53,038 nucleotides of DNA from positions 1 to 53,038 of the IMG/VR virus record IMGVR_UViG_3300046474_000337; one strand, given 5' to 3'. The notes beneath the pieces are model-generated. The model ran no database searches. It was not told the DNA's origin and saw only the letters and a list, made by a program, of their open reading frames with translations. How positions within the stretch are numbered: the stretch's first letter is position 1; each line of letters starts with the position of its first letter. Positions 8,832 to 49,838 of the stretch are shown one piece after another. A program made the position numbers and the translations under genes. The stretch comes from a virus.

Positions 8832-9668
8832 ATGGCCACCACGATTCCCCAGCAGCACCGGCCAGGAATGCACCTGGGCCGCCACATCGAGCACGACCCG
8901 CGCTCCCTCGCCTACGCGCACGGCGTGCTGCCCAAGTCGGCCATCAAGAGCGTCGAATGGACGCGCCGCATCCCCGTCCTCGATCAGGGGCAACTCGGCT
9001 CATGCACCGGCAACGCGGGCACTGGCGTCCTCGGCACCGACAGCGCCGGGCGTACCGCGTCCACCACGGTCACCATCACAGCCACCGCCGCGGCTGCCTC
9101 GCACGGCCTGTTCACGGCCGGGACATACGACCTGGACGAGGCGTTCGCGGTCAAGCTGTACTCGCTCGCGACGATCCTCGACGGCGTCACGGGCTCCTAC
9201 CCGCCCACCGACACCGGCAGCACGGGCATCGGTGTGGCGAAGGCGCTGAAGGCCCTCGGGCTCGCCTCCAGCTACACGCACGCCTTCTCGATCGCCGCCC
9301 TCAACTCGGCGTTGCAGACCGGGCCGGTGATGATCGGCATACCGTGGCTGGCCAGCATGTTCGACACCAAGAGCGACGGCCGGATCGTCGTCACCAAGAC
9401 GTCCCAGCTCGACGGCGGACACGAGCTGGAACTGTCCCGCTTCGACGCGAGTACGGGCGAGTACTGGGTGCCGAACTCGTGGTCGGACAGCTGGGGCGTG
9501 GACGGTTGGGCGTACTTCACCACCGCGGACCTGACCTGGCTGCTGTCCCAGCAGGGCGACGTGACGGTGCCCCAGCTGACGACCGCCCCCGCGCCGGCGC
9601 CGTCCGCGCCGAGTGGCGCCCAAGTCGCGGCTGCGGTCCGCAGCGCCCTGAGCGGGCTGGGAGTCTGA
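8832..9668 (+). CDS. Papain-like (C1-type) cysteine peptidase
   Basis: 278 residues, ATG at 8832 preceded by GAGAGGGGG; a GTG at 8817 is in frame but has no ribosome binding site. The papain triad is visible. [11 protein letters not shown] holds the nucleophile C58 with an oxyanion Gln a few residues before it, GGHE gives H197, and PNSWSDSWG gives N215 with the usual following Ser-Trp and Trp-Gly. A Pro/Ala-rich tail follows residue 245. There is no signal peptide. The gene lies between tail-tip genes and the endolysin, so it may act on cell-surface protein or peptide cross-links at entry or lysis. The fold call is strong; the substrate is unknown. Confidence 0.8.
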
Positions 9669-15123: not shown

Positions 15124-15294
15124 CCGCCGCCCGCGGGCCGGGCCTCCCCGCCCGAACACCGCAGGCCACGAACGAGCCTGTGTCTGGCGCGCGAGGGGAG
15201 CCGCGCCGTCCTCGTCCCGCTGCGCACTATAGATGGCCTGTACCCGCACTTCATTGCCCCATACGGATGATCGATACCAATGATCGCGCGGGGA

Positions 15295-15315
15295 TGTGGA
15301 CTCCATGTGGACTCC
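15295..15315 (+). repeat. Integrase arm-type repeats, left of attP core
   Basis: TGTGGACTCC occurs at 15295-15304 and 15306-15315, an 11-base period. The same pair occurs at 15543-15563 on the other side of the tRNA-like core. This is the layout expected for arm sites bound by the N-terminal domain of a lambda-type integrase. Confidence 0.72.
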
Positions 15316-15542: not shown

Positions 15543-15563
15543 TGTGGACTCCATGTGGACTCC
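15543..15563 (+). repeat. Integrase arm-type repeats, right of attP core
   Basis: TGTGGACTCC at 15543-15552 and 15554-15563, the same doublet and spacing as at 15295-15315. An inverted GTGGACTCC also lies at 15598-15590 inside the end of the integrase gene. Confidence 0.72.
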
Positions 15564-27823: not shown

Positions 27824-29626
27824 GTGGACAACGTCCGCCACATGCCGCGCGACCAGGCGGACCAGGACGGCCTCACACGCACCAGCCCCCACGACGCCGA
27901 GGCCGAAAACTGGGTCGCCGGCGTCATCATGCACAGCCGCACCGCCTACCTCGAATCCGCCGAGGTCATCGACCGCGACGACATCTACCAGCCCGCCATA
28001 CGCCTCATCTGGGACGTCGTCGGCGGCATGGTCGCCGAAGACAAGGCCCTCCACCCGGTCACCGTCCGCGGCGAGATCGAGAAGCTGAAGCGGCTCCGCG
28101 AGGTCGACGAAGGGCGCCTCCTCGAACGCCTCGGCGCCCAGACCATCTCCGCCACCATGGCGCAGGCCTTCGCCGTACAGATCGCCGACAAGGCCCGCGT
28201 CCGCCGCCACGACGAACACGCCAACCGCATCAAGGTCGAGATCGCCCGCGGCGCGACCGGCGAGGAACTCGACAAGCTCGACGACGACCACCGCCAGTAC
28301 GAAGCCCGGCGTGCCGCCACCGGCCACGGCCCCTCACACCTCACCACCGCGTTCATCGACTGGAACCCGTTCTTCGCCACCGACTTCGGCCAAGTCCAGC
28401 TCCTGCCCGGCCGACTCCTCGCCCCCGGCCAGCAGATCACCATCGTCGGTGAGGGCAAGGCCGGTAAGTCGCTGGTCGTCCAAGAGTGGCTGTGGCGCAT
28501 GGCCACCGGCCAAAGCTTCCTCGGTGACCGCCCACAGGCCCCGATCCCCCTGCTGTACGTCGACGCGGAGAACGGCCACCAGGACATTCAGGAACGCTTC
28601 CTGTCCTACGGGGCAGGCCCCGGCCGCATGGGCCTGATGACCTACGCATCCTTCCCGCCCATCCGCCCCCTCGACACTGCGGGTGGCGGCGCCGACCTGA
28701 TGGCCATGGTCAAGGAGTCCGAGGCCCAACTCGTCTGCCTCGACACCGTGTCCCGGTTCATCTCCGGCCCCGAGAACGACGCCGACACCTGGCTGTCCCT
28801 GTACCGGCACACGCTGCTGCCGCTGAAGCGCGCGGGCATCGCGTCGGTGCGCCTCGACCACATGGGCAAGGACGGCGAGCGCGGCGCCCGCGGCTCGTCG
28901 GCGAAGACCCAGGACGTCGACCACGTGTGGGAGCTCAGGGCGCAGGGCGGCGGCACGCTCGTGCTGAAGCGGACCCACACGCGCACCGGAATCGGCCCGG
29001 ACGCCTTCGTCGTCATGCGCCAGTCGCAGAAGGACGGCGACCGCTACCGGCCCGGCTGCACCCGCCACGTCCTCATGGAATACGACCGCATGGAGCAGGC
29101 CGCCGAGGGCTCGGTGGAGTGGCTGATCCAGAAGATCGACGACCTCGGCCTACCGAACGACGCAGGCAACCCGCGCACGATCAAGGCCCTCGCGGCGGCC
29201 GAGATCAGGGCAGGCAAAGACAAGATCGCCGACGCGGTCCGGATGCGGAAAAACCGTGACAACTCGGGTTCCCGGGAAACCTTCCCGGAGACCTTCCCGG
29301 AAGGGGTTCCCGGGGAACGTTCCCCGGAAACTTCAAAGGGATCGCAAAAACCCCAGGTCAACCATTCCCCGGAAACCCCGCGGGAACCTGCGGAAACCCC
29401 CCCTTCCCCCCCTTCCCCCCCTCTACGAGAGGGGAAGGGGGAGGGAAGGCCCGCCGCAGGTGCCACAGACGAACCCCTCTGCACCGTCTGCACCAAGCCT
29501 CTCCACGGCTACCGCAAGGACCGCGGATACGAGACATGCCTCGGCTGCGACCCCAAGACCGGCAGCCACCCCGACAGGCCCAACCACCCCCAGGCAGACG
29601 ACGACCACCACCACGGCGCCGCCTGA
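27824..29626 (+). CDS. Replicative helicase: DnaB N-terminal domain plus RecA-type ATPase
   Basis: 600 residues, GTG at 27824 with GAGGAG at 27811; the frame is open further upstream but only as a shadow of the previous gene. Residues about 22-120 resemble the DnaB N-terminal domain (SPHDAEAENWVAGVIM, an EVIDRDDIYQPAIRLIW block). Residues about 175-450 are a RepA/DnaB-type ATPase with Walker A GEGKAGKS (209-216), Walker B LLYVDAENG (D247) and LVCLDTVSRF. Residues about 480-545 are a Pro/Glu/Thr-rich linker encoded by a cluster of repeats (29269-29395). The last 50 residues carry a zinc-ribbon CxxC...CxxC and a His-rich end. It probably unwinds phage DNA; no separate initiator or primase was recognised. 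Confidence 0.82.
   Translation: MDNVRHMPRDQADQDGLTRTSPHDAEAENWVAGVIMHSRTAYLESAEVIDRDDIYQPAIRLIWDVVGGMVAEDKALHPVTVRGEIEKLKRLREVDEGRLLERLGAQTISATMAQAFAVQIADKARVRRHDEHANRIKVEIARGATGEELDKLDDDHRQYEARRAATGHGPSHLTTAFIDWNPFFATDFGQVQLLPGRLLAPGQQITIVGEGKAGKSLVVQEWLWRMATGQSFLGDRPQAPIPLLYVDAENGHQDIQERFLSYGAGPGRMGLMTYASFPPIRPLDTAGGGADLMAMVKESEAQLVCLDTVSRFISGPENDADTWLSLYRHTLLPLKRAGIASVRLDHMGKDGERGARGSSAKTQDVDHVWELRAQGGGTLVLKRTHTRTGIGPDAFVVMRQSQKDGDRYRPGCTRHVLMEYDRMEQAAEGSVEWLIQKIDDLGLPNDAGNPRTIKALAAAEIRAGKDKIADAVRMRKNRDNSGSRETFPETFPEGVPGERSPETSKGSQKPQVNHSPETPREPAETPPSPPSPPLREGKGEGRPAAGATDEPLCTVCTKPLHGYRKDRGYETCLGCDPKTGSHPDRPNHPQADDDHHHGAA
29269..29395. repeat. Cluster of TTCCC-GGAA near-palindromes inside the helicase gene (possible origin)
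   Basis: Near-palindromic copies lie at 29269-29278 (TTCCCGGGAA), 29282-29290, 29294-29302, 29307-29317, 29320-29329 and 29365-29374 (TTCCCCGGAA), with half-sites at 29381 and 29391. A relatively A-rich stretch (ACTTCAAAGGGATCGCAAAAA) separates the fifth and sixth. Lambda-type phages place their origin as iterons inside the initiator gene, so this is a candidate origin. Confidence 0.5.
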
Positions 29627-37204: not shown

Positions 37205-37375
37205 GTGTCTGACAACGCACAGCTCGCCAGAACCGGAACCGCCGGCGCCCTCGTCATCGGCACCACCGTCATCACCGGATGGTGGCTGATCGGCGTAGCC
37301 GTCGGCATAGTCGCCATCGGCGCACTCTGCATCCGCTTCGGCTTCCGCCGCGGCAGGACAGCAGGCGAGCAGTGA
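37205..37375 (+). CDS. Small two-pass-type membrane protein upstream of GT2
   Basis: 56 residues, GTG at 37205 with AGGAAG upstream. After a short polar start, residues about 12-46 are hydrophobic (GALVIGTTVITGWWLIG, VAVGIVAIGALCI), then a basic end (RFGFRRGRTAGEQ). Its stop overlaps the glycosyltransferase start (GTGA), so the two are translationally coupled and may associate in the membrane. No family recognised. Confidence 0.68.
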   Translation: MSDNAQLARTGTAGALVIGTTVITGWWLIGVAVGIVAIGALCIRFGFRRGRTAGEQ

Positions 37376-38838
37376 CCAGAACCCCGAGCGCCCACCTGCA
37401 CCGCTCCACCACGATCCTCACCGGTGCCGTCGTACTGCTGGCCGCGGCGGTGTGGGCCGCGCACCACGGCGTCCAGGCCGCGCACTACGGGCAGCAGACG
37501 GGCAGTCGTCTCGCCGCGGTGTGGGCCACCACGTTCCTGCTGCTCCTCACGCAGACGTTGATGTACCACTGCGAGCGGACCCGACGGCCGTCGGCGCGGG
37601 CGCGGCGCCAACTCGACGCGCTGCACGTCGCCGTGTTGATCCCCGTGTACAACGAAGACGACGGCTATCTGCGGCTCGGCCTGGAGTCGATGCTCGCGCA
37701 GACCCGCCGCCCGAACTCCGTGCACGTCGTCGATGACGGGTCGACGTCCGGGGATTACGCGCAGGTGCGCGCCTGGTGGGAGCGGGCCGCGGCCGAGGCC
37801 GGGATCACGACGACGTGGCAGCGGACCGTCAACGGCGGGAAGCGGCATGCGCAGGGCGCGGCCGTACGCGTCAGCTCGGACGCGGAGGTGTACATCACCG
37901 TCGACTCCGACTCGTGCCTCGCACCGAACGCCGTCGAGGAGATCCTCCTCCCGTTCACCCGGCCGCGGGTGCAGTCCGTGGCCGGCGTCGTCCTCGCCAC
38001 CAACCACCGGGCCAACCTCCTCACCCGCGTCACGGACCTGTGGTTCGTCACCGGCCAACTGACCGACCGGTCCGCGCTGTCCGCGATGGGCTCGGTACTC
38101 GTCAACTCGGGCCCGCTCGCCGCGTACCGGGCCGAGGTGATCCGCGACAACCTCGACTCCTACCTGAACGAGACGTTCATGGGCCGCCCGGTGATGTTCT
38201 CCGACGACAGCCTGCTGACCCTGTACGCGCTGCTCCGTGGCCGCACGGTCCAGCAGCCGAGCGCCGTGGTGTTCACCGCGCTGCCCGAGCGGCCTCGTCA
38301 CTTCCTCGCTATGTATTGCCGCTGGATGCGCGGCTCGACGATCCGCTCCCTGTGGCGCATGCGCTACCTGCCGGTGACCGGGTGGGCGTACTGGGCTCAC
38401 CTGCTGCGCTGGTTCCAAGTCGCCCTGTCCACCGCGGTCCTGGGCTGGCTCCTGATCGTCGAACCGCTCCGGTACGGCGACATCCCGCCCGCGAGCTTCT
38501 TGATAGTGCCGTTCCTCATCGGATGGGCCCAAGCCCTCCGCTACCTCGGCGTCATCCGCTCCGACGAACGCATCCGCTCCCGCGCCGTCACCTGGCTGCT
38601 CATGCCGCTCGCCGTCGTCGGCTCGTGGACCGTGCTCCGGGTGATGCGCTGGTACGGCATGGCCACCTGCGCCCGCACCGGCTGGGGCACCCGCCAGAAC
38701 GGCGCGGAAGTCACCCTCGACACCGCGCCCGCGCCGGCCGCCGTGCTGGCGGACGACGACACGGTGCGCATCCCCCTCGTGAAGCTCCGCGACCTGGAGT
38801 CCGAGACCACGTTGCAGATCGCGTTCACCGCCCGCTGA
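37372..38838 (+). CDS. Membrane-embedded GT2 glycosyltransferase (hyaluronan/cellulose-synthase-like)
   Basis: 488 residues, GTG at 37372. Two N-terminal membrane helices (about 10-31 and 41-60) precede a GT-A domain: ALHVAVLIPVYNEDD, then VVDDGS (D121/D122), TVDSDSC (D178, D180: the metal-binding DxD), and FSDDS (D278/D279, the base region). The acceptor motif QxxRW reads MYCRW (314-318), with Met for Gln. Three more membrane helices follow (about 345-440) and a soluble tail. This is the topology of processive synthases such as HasA, NodC or CesA. It may make or modify a surface glycan, perhaps blocking other phages or aiding spread. Product and acceptor are unknown, and the enzyme is unusual on a phage. 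Confidence 0.82.
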   Translation: MTRTPSAHLHRSTTILTGAVVLLAAAVWAAHHGVQAAHYGQQTGSRLAAVWATTFLLLLTQTLMYHCERTRRPSARARRQLDALHVAVLIPVYNEDDGYLRLGLESMLAQTRRPNSVHVVDDGSTSGDYAQVRAWWERAAAEAGITTTWQRTVNGGKRHAQGAAVRVSSDAEVYITVDSDSCLAPNAVEEILLPFTRPRVQSVAGVVLATNHRANLLTRVTDLWFVTGQLTDRSALSAMGSVLVNSGPLAAYRAEVIRDNLDSYLNETFMGRPVMFSDDSLLTLYALLRGRTVQQPSAVVFTALPERPRHFLAMYCRWMRGSTIRSLWRMRYLPVTGWAYWAHLLRWFQVALSTAVLGWLLIVEPLRYGDIPPASFLIVPFLIGWAQALRYLGVIRSDERIRSRAVTWLLMPLAVVGSWTVLRVMRWYGMATCARTGWGTRQNGAEVTLDTAPAPAAVLADDDTVRIPLVKLRDLESETTLQIAFTAR

Positions 38839-45525: not shown

Positions 45526-45689
45526 TCAGGCCCGAGCCGTCCCCCCAGGACATCGCCACATGGCTCCGTGACCCGTGCAACCGGGACGCCGTCGCGGGCG
45601 TTCTGCGCCGTGAGGCCCGCTGCGGCGCGCCGTGGCTGCGGGAGTTCATCGAGCGCGAGAACCGCGCCCGTCGCCAGGGCTTCGCATGA
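45522..45689 (+). CDS. Small protein between the terminase subunits
   Basis: 55 residues, GTG at 45522 overlapping the small terminase stop, and its own stop overlaps the large terminase ATG. Content: PSPQDIATWLRDPCNRDAVA, then RREARCGAPWLREFIEREN, a basic helical end. The double overlap supports a real gene. It could be a packaging accessory factor; unknown. Confidence 0.65.
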   Translation: MIRPEPSPQDIATWLRDPCNRDAVAGVLRREARCGAPWLREFIERENRARRQGFA

Positions 45690-47244: not shown

Positions 47245-48750
47245 GTGGGAAGAAGCTTCCTCGGCTCCCTCGCCAACGCGGCGACCTCCCTCCGCACCGC
47301 ATCCGCGACGCCGCCCGTCCCCTTCACGAGCCGCGGCCAGTCGTACGGCATGTTCGGCGCACGCCGTGACGCCGAAGGCCAGATGCGCGCCATGTCCGCA
47401 GTGGGAACGCTCTTCGCGATCGTCGACCGCACCTCCAACGCGACCGCGCTGGTGGACTGGAAGCTGTACCGCAAGGCCAAGTCGGGCCGCGACGAGGACC
47501 GCGTCGAAGTCACCAGCCACGCCGCGTTGGACCTGTGGAACCGGCCGAACGCGTTCATGCCGCGGCAGGAGTTCGTCGAGTCGTCCACGCAGCACTACGA
47601 CTTGACCGGCGAGTCCTGGTGGGTGATCTCCCGGCACGCCGCGTCGTCGCTGCCGCTGGAACTGTGGCCCGTCCGCCCCGACCGCATGACCCCCGTCCCG
47701 TCGCGCGAGCAGTTCCTCGCCGGGTACATCTACACGTCACCGGACGGCGAGCAGATCCCCCTCGATCTCGATCAGGTCATTCAGCTGCGCCGGCCGAACC
47801 CCCTGGACCCGTACCGCGGGCTGTCGCCGGTGCTGTCGATCCTCCCCGACCTCGACACCTCCCGGTATGCGGCCGAGTGGTCGCGTGCGTTCTTCATCAA
47901 CAGCGCGCAGCCCGGCGGCATCCTCCAGTTCGATCAGCGGTTGTCGGACCAGGAGTTCGACGAGCTTCGCGACCGGTGGGCCGAGCAGCACAAGGGCGTC
48001 GCGAACGCCCACAGGGTCGCGATCCTGGAGCAGGGCAAGTGGGTTGACCGCACTGTGTCGCAGCGCGACATGCAGTTCGTTGAGCTGCGGGGCGCGACCG
48101 CGGACCGCATCCGTGAGGCGTACGGCATCTCCAAGACCGCGATCGGTGACTTCGAAGACATCAACCGGGCGTCCGCGCTCGCGGCGAAGGCGTGGTTCGC
48201 GGAGCAGCAGACCATTCCGCGCCTGGAGCGGATCAAGGCCGCGCTCAACTTCGAGCTCCTGCCCATGTACGGGCGGACCGCGGACAGCCTGGAGTTCGAC
48301 TACGAGAACCCGGTGCCAGTCGACGCGGAGACCGAGGCGACGCAGCTCACGGCGCGCGCCAACGCGGCAAAGGCGCTGGCTGACGCAGGGCTGTGGGACG
48401 CGGACGACATCCTCTCCGCGGTCGGCCTCCCGGAGATGCGGCGGACCGTGGCGCCCGCGCTTCCTGCGGCGGGGCCCGCGGCGTCGTGGGATGAGGCGGT
48501 CGCCGGGCTGATCGGCGGCGGTGGCGGCGACGGCATCGAGGCCGCGATGCGGTGGGAGGCCGTCGCGGTCATCGATGACGACACCTGCCAGCCGTGCGCG
48601 GACAACGACGGTCAGCTCTACCGCAACCGTGCGGCAGCGTACGCGGACTACCCCGGCGGTCAGGGCTACAAGGACTGCGTCGGCGCCGAGTTCGGCAACA
48701 AGTGCCGCTGCAAGGTGATCAAGCGGCGCAAGACGGGAGACGACGAATGA
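47245..48750 (+). CDS. Portal protein (HK97 family)
   Basis: 501 residues, GTG at 47245 with GGGGAGGGA upstream. Portal hallmarks are VDWKLYRKA, HAALDLWNRPNAFMPRQEFV, DLTGESWWVISR and IQLRRPNPLDPYRGLSPV in the first half, with IREAYGISKTAIGDFEDINR and FNFELLPMYG-type helices later. The C-terminal 60 residues carry DDDTCQPCADNDGQ and DCVGAEFGNKCRCK, a Cys-rich tail like that of MuF-type or portal-fused minor head proteins. It forms the dodecameric DNA gate at one capsid vertex. Followed by the protease with overlap. Confidence 0.92.
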   Translation: MGRSFLGSLANAATSLRTASATPPVPFTSRGQSYGMFGARRDAEGQMRAMSAVGTLFAIVDRTSNATALVDWKLYRKAKSGRDEDRVEVTSHAALDLWNRPNAFMPRQEFVESSTQHYDLTGESWWVISRHAASSLPLELWPVRPDRMTPVPSREQFLAGYIYTSPDGEQIPLDLDQVIQLRRPNPLDPYRGLSPVLSILPDLDTSRYAAEWSRAFFINSAQPGGILQFDQRLSDQEFDELRDRWAEQHKGVANAHRVAILEQGKWVDRTVSQRDMQFVELRGATADRIREAYGISKTAIGDFEDINRASALAAKAWFAEQQTIPRLERIKAALNFELLPMYGRTADSLEFDYENPVPVDAETEATQLTARANAAKALADAGLWDADDILSAVGLPEMRRTVAPALPAAGPAASWDEAVAGLIGGGGGDGIEAAMRWEAVAVIDDDTCQPCADNDGQLYRNRAAAYADYPGGQGYKDCVGAEFGNKCRCKVIKRRKTGDDE

Positions 48751-49838
48751 GCCGGATGCAGGGCCTCACGCTTCCCGCCAAGGCCAGCGCATTCACCGCG
48801 CGTCAGCGGGAGCAGGCTGACAAGCTGCGCGCGCAGCACGGCATCGAGGCGCAGTCCTGGTACCGCATCACCAACGCGGCCGACTCGGACGAGGCCGAGG
48901 TGATGCTGTACGACGAGGTGGGCGGCTGGTACGGCGCGACCGCGGATCAGTTCATCGCGGACCTGCGTGGGGTGACTGCGCCGAACCTGCGGGTGCGGGT
49001 CAACAGCCCTGGTGGCAGCGTCTTTGAGGGCATTGCTATCGCCAACGCGCTGCGCTCCCACCCGGCGAACGTCGTCGTGCAGGTCGACGGGATCGCCGCC
49101 TCCATCGCCTCCGTCATCGCGATGGCCGGGGACCGCGTCGAGATGGCCCCGAACACCATGCTCATGATCCACGAAGCCAGCGGCCTGTGCATGGGCAACG
49201 CCGCGGACATGGCCGAGATGGAAGAGCTCCTCGACCTCATCAGCGACAACATCGCGGACGCGTACGCCTCCCGCGCGGGCGGCACCCGCGAGCAGTGGCG
49301 CGAGGCCATGCGCGCAGAGACTTGGTACCTGCCCGACGACGCCGTCAAGGCCGGCCTGGCGGACGAGGCGACGCAGACCCCGAAGCGCGGGGAGCCGGTG
49401 ACCGAGCCGGGCGAGGACGAGCCTGCCCCGGAGATGCAGAAGGCATTCGATCTCACCGCGTACGGCTACACCGGGCCCACGCAGACGTCCGAGCCCTCGG
49501 CGAGCGAGCCGACGCTCACCATCAACATCGGTGCGGCTGTCGACGAGGACCTCATCGCTCGGCTGCGTGCCGCGGTGCAGCCGCCGGCCGCAGACCCAGA
49601 GCCTGTGGCCGTTGCCGACCCGGAGCCTGTGGACGAGCCAGAAGTCCCGGCCGAGCCCGAGCCTGTTGCCACAGCCGAGCCCACCGAACCCGCGGAGACC
49701 GGCACCCAGCCGGACAACGCAGACGACGACTGGACGGCCATGGTCGCCAGCCTCATCCCCGACGACGGCGACACATGGTCGGCGCTCGTCTCCAACCTGA
49801 TCGAGCCCGACACGTCGTCCAGCGCGGCGACGGCCTGA
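48747..49838 (+). CDS. ClpP-type prohead protease with C-terminal scaffold-like tail
   Basis: 363 residues, ATG at 48747 overlapping the portal stop. Residues about 35-215 are a ClpP/S14 serine protease: VRVNSPGGSVFEG, then VDGIAASIASVIAMAG with nucleophile S119, and MLMIHEAS with H142. The acid residue lies in the following helix. Residues 220-363 are acidic and rich in Pro, Glu and Thr (EPVDEPEVPAEPEPVA-type repeats), suitable as a scaffold that is removed on maturation. The capsid gene follows 11 bases later and no separate scaffold gene is visible, supporting a fused protease-scaffold. Confidence 0.9.
   Translation: MSRMQGLTLPAKASAFTARQREQADKLRAQHGIEAQSWYRITNAADSDEAEVMLYDEVGGWYGATADQFIADLRGVTAPNLRVRVNSPGGSVFEGIAIANALRSHPANVVVQVDGIAASIASVIAMAGDRVEMAPNTMLMIHEASGLCMGNAADMAEMEELLDLISDNIADAYASRAGGTREQWREAMRAETWYLPDDAVKAGLADEATQTPKRGEPVTEPGEDEPAPEMQKAFDLTAYGYTGPTQTSEPSASEPTLTINIGAAVDEDLIARLRAAVQPPAADPEPVAVADPEPVDEPEVPAEPEPVATAEPTEPAETGTQPDNADDDWTAMVASLIPDDGDTWSALVSNLIEPDTSSSAATA

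Follow-up and report, generated by a model that had tools for sequence, protein, structure and literature searches.

A cluster of short repeats lies within the reading frame of a helicase gene in the phage genome analysed here, raising the question of what the repeats are for and which protein reads them. The sequence comparisons described below suggest that the replication start site of a Streptomyces phage very probably lies within the gene that encodes the phage's own replicative helicase. We consider it likely that the segment from 29269 to 29447 is an origin within a gene of the DnaB family, that it would be bound by a three-helix domain of the same helicase, and that the helicase would load itself at an adjoining element. 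Descriptions of Streptomyces temperate phage origins that fit this arrangement were not found in the literature searched, and such origins appear to be little described.

Genome context and the helicase gene

The window (the entire 53,038-base stretch of DNA) is a complete virus record. Tail genes lie at the left end, with tape measure at 307 and endolysin at 8957, and head genes at the right end, with terminase at 45632, portal at 47245 and capsid at 49187, which makes a permuted record probable. An early module in the centre encodes a RecE-like exonuclease (20841), ERF (22072), a further exonuclease (22860), and RuvC-like (24255), WhiB (25246) and DUF2303 (26681) proteins, followed by the helicase and a DUF4326 protein (29536), such that the helicase gene is set among phage replication and recombination genes. 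Elsewhere in the window are a phage gene for a family 2 glycosyltransferase (37279-38835) and tandem pairs of ATGTGGACTCC at 15294-15315 and 15543-15563, with a spacing of 249 bases. All four exact copies of TGTGGACTCC in the window fall within these pairs, which are possibly operator sites.

The GTG at 27824 was chosen as the helicase start because the start codon and ribosome binding site are common to its relatives. The gene product has a DnaB N-terminal domain and an AAA_25 motor (Pfam), its PHROG assignment is DnaB-like replicative helicase, and DnaB hexamers are the best fold matches of its model; with its N-terminal domain and RecA-fold motor it is a DnaB-family replicative helicase. 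The nearest isolated phage by helicase is Streptomyces phage mu1/6 (gp21, DNA helicase; 46% identity). Beyond the motor, AlphaFold predicts three helices (residues 431-440, 449-458 and 465-480). Searches of Pfam and of PDB sequences with this three-helix domain gave no significant match, and neither did a fold search with the isolated domain, where only weak homeodomain-like arrangements at Z 3-4 appeared. The repeats fall within the stretch encoding residues 480-548, which is predicted to be disordered (pLDDT about 25-40), and lie between the three-helix domain and a segment with four cysteines (Table 1).

Table 1. Features of the helicase gene and its repeat array, in window coordinates.
Feature	Coordinates	Strand	Basis or remark
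DnaB-like helicase gene, proposed initiator helicase	27824..29626	+	GTG start, 600 aa
Three-helix domain (residues 431-480), proposed iteron-reading domain	29114..29263	+	AlphaFold helices, identity tracking, tree concordance
Left iteron array, five TTCCC/GGAA near-palindromes (29269, 29282, 29294, 29307, 29320)	29269..29329	.	Three codon phases
A-rich spacer and shared element AAAAACCCCAGGTCAACC, candidate opening or host-factor site	29346..29363	+	Once in window; kept across iteron classes
Sixth palindrome TTCCCCGGAA	29365..29374	.	Immediately 3' of shared element, likewise in most relatives
Two inverted half-sites, GGGAA 29382 and GGAA 29392	29382..29395	-	Sequence
Terminal half-sites and hairpin: TTCCC 29404, 29413; GGGAA 29432, 29443	29404..29447	.	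Stem 29408-29420 / 29429-29441
Cys4 (zinc-ribbon-like) C-terminal segment past the proposed origin; C553 C556 C572 C575	29480..29548	+	Most relatives

Organization of the repeat array

A preliminary description made from the sequence had noted six near-palindromes and two half-sites within 127 bases, an A-rich stretch inside the cluster, and a polypyrimidine/polypurine mirror block beyond it. All of these are present. The palindromes fit the pattern TTCC-(1-3)-GG[AG][AG] and, with the two half-sites, span 29269-29395; the polypyrimidine/polypurine block is an inverted repeat whose 13-bp arms carry one mismatch and enclose a loop of 8, and its pyrimidine strand is also mirror-symmetric (29408-29441). 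The + strand of this region folds as single-stranded DNA at -19.3 kcal/mol (z -2.2), and the - strand is unexceptional (z -0.9). A search of Rfam gave only sub-threshold chance matches to miRNA hairpins.

As is expected of an iteron origin, several short repeats are packed compactly and above chance. TTCCSNGGAA occurs three times in the window, each occurrence being counted on both strands, always inside the array; 0.5 matches are expected, and six matches were reached in none of 100 shuffles. The best 180-200-bp segment contains 11-13 TTCCC/GGGAA motifs, vs at most three elsewhere in the 53-kb record.

Selection on the DNA

Because the repeats lie in coding sequence, they could in principle merely reflect a low-complexity, proline-rich linker and repeat slippage, with no function for the DNA. 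The linker is indeed predicted to be disordered, and it tolerates change, but synonymous recoding cannot reach the observed counts. In 2000 recodings, with the protein fixed and codons drawn by the genes' own usage, the 216-base tail carried 2.5 +/- 0.7 TTCCC/GGGAA half-sites (maximum 6), vs 13 observed. The 20 tails of TTCCC-type relatives included in this test contain 8-16 half-sites where means of 0.5-4.5 are expected, and every one exceeds its null maximum. A motif-free version of the test, using the largest 6-mer count, places all 42 loci above nearly all of their recodings, and the 3' hairpin also beats synonymous recodings in most loci, although not all.

The same DNA is also read in different frames. 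The six palindromes lie in codon phases 2, 0, 0, 1, 2 and 2, and the codon phase of the shared element is 0 in 22 relatives and 2 in a further 18, whereas in a second helicase family (see below) it is 1. In one relative, L215, the open reading frame ends inside the array, and the array, element and hairpin run on as non-coding DNA past the stop codon. The recoding excess, the variety of reading frames and the non-coding continuation in L215 together show that the DNA is what is kept, as the preliminary description had proposed, and we regard an origin of the repeats in linker slippage as very improbable.

Relatives and iteron classes

About 50 relatives of the helicase, drawn from viral contigs and from Streptomyces or Kitasatospora genomes, carry a corresponding array at this position, built from other iterons. 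They share a common layout, with iterons followed by the element, a palindrome, inverted half-sites and a hairpin, and the 3' inverted repeat is present in all iteron classes, its arms class-specific but matched. The iteron types are TTCCCC, CGTTCCC, CGTTTCC/CGGAAC, CTCCCCC, CCTGCCC and CCTGTCC. CCTGCCC is the iteron of mu1/6, where its 10 copies in 200 bp form the top 7-mer cluster of the 38-kb genome. Absence of the repeats from close relatives would have counted against the earlier suggestion of an origin inside the helicase gene; every close relative with a full-length tail keeps them, and distant relatives keep the same architecture with other iterons. The suggestion was not refuted by this comparison and is on the whole supported.

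In the second helicase family the core is about 30% identical, and the iterons are the same whenever the three-helix domain is the same: CTCCCCC is common to L067/L074 and L075-L083, and CCTGTCC to L068 and L117. The array lies downstream of the gene or across its stop codon only in L215, L216, L226 and L229. As negative controls, the RepA/primpol helicase genes of Rhodococcus, Nocardia, Gordonia, Mycobacterium and Caulobacter phages lack the array and element, as does the DnaB-like helicase of cluster L. In a further relative (L062) the helicase frame breaks just past the three-helix domain, and no array is present.

Covariation of iterons with the three-helix domain

Two features that the preliminary description missed are the CAGGTCA element and the coupling of the iterons to one domain of the helicase. 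Across loci, iteron similarity rises with three-helix-domain identity, at r 0.81 and, as a partial correlation given the core, at 0.71 (0 of 2000 permutations), with the caveats that related sequences are not independent and that the domain adjoins the array, such that co-inheritance by recombination can yield part of the correlation. With the domain accounted for, the correlation with the helicase core is 0.20, and the Cys4 segment, which lies beyond the array, is weakly associated (partial r 0.22). A block scan along the helicase gives r 0.33-0.62 for residues 20-439, 0.87 for residues 440-469 and 0.68 for residues 470-499. The peak at 440-469 does not come from mere distance, because residues 470-499 are nearest to the array and give the lower value. 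The positions that contribute most (449, 450, 452, 456 and 465) are near the starts of helices 2 and 3.

The trees agree with the correlations. When iteron classes are defined by clustering of the DNA alone, five class changes are needed on the tree of the three-helix domain, which is the minimum, vs 17 on the tree of the core. Individual pairs illustrate this: the cores of the window and L039 are 92% identical, and those of L074 and mu1/6 79% identical, and in both pairs the domains and the iterons differ.

An alternative is that the array is an origin, but that another phage or host protein binds the iterons and recruits the helicase, as lambda O does for DnaB. Lambdoid phages offer a precedent for a separate iteron binder (PMC7466680), and several genes adjoining the helicase gene have no known function. 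However, six neighboring genes (RuvC-like, WhiB, phrog_204, DUF2303, phrog_16156 and DUF4326) have partial correlations with the iterons of -0.05 to 0.12, where the helicase domain, over the same loci, has 0.45-0.75, and a host binder cannot explain why there are six or more iteron types, several of which occur inside a single host genus. A separate binder thus seems unlikely. Iteron type follows the three-helix domain, and not the helicase core or the neighboring genes, which indicates that a small domain of the helicase would read the site, and that reader and site appear to be exchanged together between phages.

The shared element

The element AAAACCsCAGGTCArAC is kept in nearly all loci, with L068 and L081 lacking a good copy. 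In the window the local A+T content at the element is about 0.43 over a background of 0.29, a short and weak rise. A blind scan of viral contigs for the element recovered the helicase family together with two unrelated replicons. In one of these (L127) a primpol-D5 helicase is fused to PolA, with ACCCTCCAC iterons within the reading frame; in the other (L097) CTGAAAC iterons are directly downstream of a primpol-D5 gene. The L127 frame (L127:3081-7853) is a single one that comprises the primpol-D5-type helicase, the iteron array with the element, and the family A DNA polymerase. The element matches in viral contigs are otherwise mostly chance, or a marine phage gene coding for the same 16 bases.

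The number of elements in Streptomycetaceae genomes (73, vs 0 for a reversed-pattern control) is inflated by matches that are not origins, at a conserved position upstream of a tRNA and in a terminator hairpin, and for this reason only array-bearing loci were used. Arrays are present in 12 of 30 element loci fetched from these genomes, vs 25 of 330 background windows, and arrays of at least eight copies in 6 of 30 vs 2 of 330. Among them are arrays that follow a DUF3987 helicase (L226) or another DnaB/AAA_25 helicase (L235, and L216 with an array below the 6-copy threshold), and in L237 the array is beside a prim-pol gene. The eight element matches from outside the Streptomycetaceae have no arrays. 

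Several other occurrences were seen. In Streptomyces chromosomes (L240, L241, L243, L245-L247 and L255) the element is at a conserved position just upstream of a tRNA-like sequence, without iterons; L253 and L257, from one genome in a phylum-wide search, are near-identical copies with shared flanks and no iterons. In L152, and possibly similarly in L101, L125, L134 and L149, ACGTG repeats end in the element upstream of an apparent parA-type gene, and the L152 site may be a plasmid-prophage origin or a partition site.

We would guess that the element is a host-factor, opening or priming site. A broader proposal, which we put forward tentatively and would not yet favor, is that Streptomyces phages and integrative elements have this one origin element in common, as the binding site of a common host factor or as a common opening or priming site. 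Each replicon would surround it with iterons of its own, and replication specificity would be set by a helicase domain that can be exchanged.

Is the array an origin?

Clustered palindromes are typical also of operators and centromeres, and the array might be a regulatory or maintenance site (an operator, partition centromere or packaging site) and not an origin. Against this, the motif clusters nowhere else in the window, a scan for promoters and terminators found no such site, the array follows a domain of a helicase and not of a repressor or ParB, and the shared element recurs by other replication helicases; we judge this explanation improbable. No exact DnaA box (TTGTCCACA) was found. The preliminary description had also proposed a GC-skew check. 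On either side of 29.3 kb the skew stays negative and does not change sign, and mu1/6 likewise shows no sign change. The skew thus does not support a bidirectional origin at 29.3 kb, and is compatible with one-way replication or with skew set by transcription.

In the preferred reading, an in-gene origin read by the helicase itself, copies of the helicase would bind the TTCCC iterons through their own three-helix domains (residues about 431-480), gather to the left and right of the A-rich CAGGTCA element, and self-load on the strand opened there. The 3' hairpin, formed by face-to-face half-sites, might close the array or provide a structure for single-strand entry or priming. All of these steps, from physical binding through strand opening at the element to self-loading, are inferred, as are the part played by the hairpin and the start of replication at this site.

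A candidate origin and its probable reader are now testable in mu1/6, a sequenced isolate, and the matched domain-iteron pairs, of which there are at least six, provide a natural series for how a helicase reads DNA. Between unrelated helicase cores a phage origin module would appear to be swapped whole, and the proposed origins of very different initiators have an uncharacterised element next to them. If the proposal for the shared element is true, the origin type would be readable from about five helicase residues.

Comparison with known systems

In the homologous helicase gene of mu1/6 (gp21) the array, the CAGGTCA element and the hairpin occupy the corresponding position, but the three-helix domain is of another type and the iteron is CCTGCCC; its record carries no origin annotation.

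The preliminary description had compared the array with the lambda origin, and the comparison holds for location but not for type of protein. In lambdoid phages the iterons are inside the O gene (PMC7466680), and here too they lie in the gene of the protein presumed to bind them, next to an A-rich stretch, with extra iterons lengthening a tolerant linker. Lambda O, however, is no helicase and depends on P and on the DnaB of the host, whereas this gene itself encodes a DnaB-like helicase and not a non-helicase, O-like initiator.

SaPI Rep would be the closer mechanistic parallel. The self-loading initiator helicases of staphylococcal islands, among them SaPI Rep and SCCmec Cch2, are described as recognising, through a C-terminal domain, iterons that lie just 3' of the gene (PMC7581432). 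The phage protein resembles them as a helicase with a C-terminal candidate DNA-binding domain, short iterons just 3' of that domain, and a single protein as presumed binder and helicase. They differ in that the island proteins belong to the D5/Primase_Cterm or DUF927 type of helicase and have their origin immediately downstream of the gene, whereas the phage has a RecA-fold helicase of the DnaB family (DnaB N-terminal domain and AAA_25), with the array inside the gene, followed by a Cys4 segment, and with the CAGGTCA element. By analogy, the case is best read as joining the Rep/ori logic of SaPIs and a lambda-O-like location within the gene to a helicase of the DnaB family.
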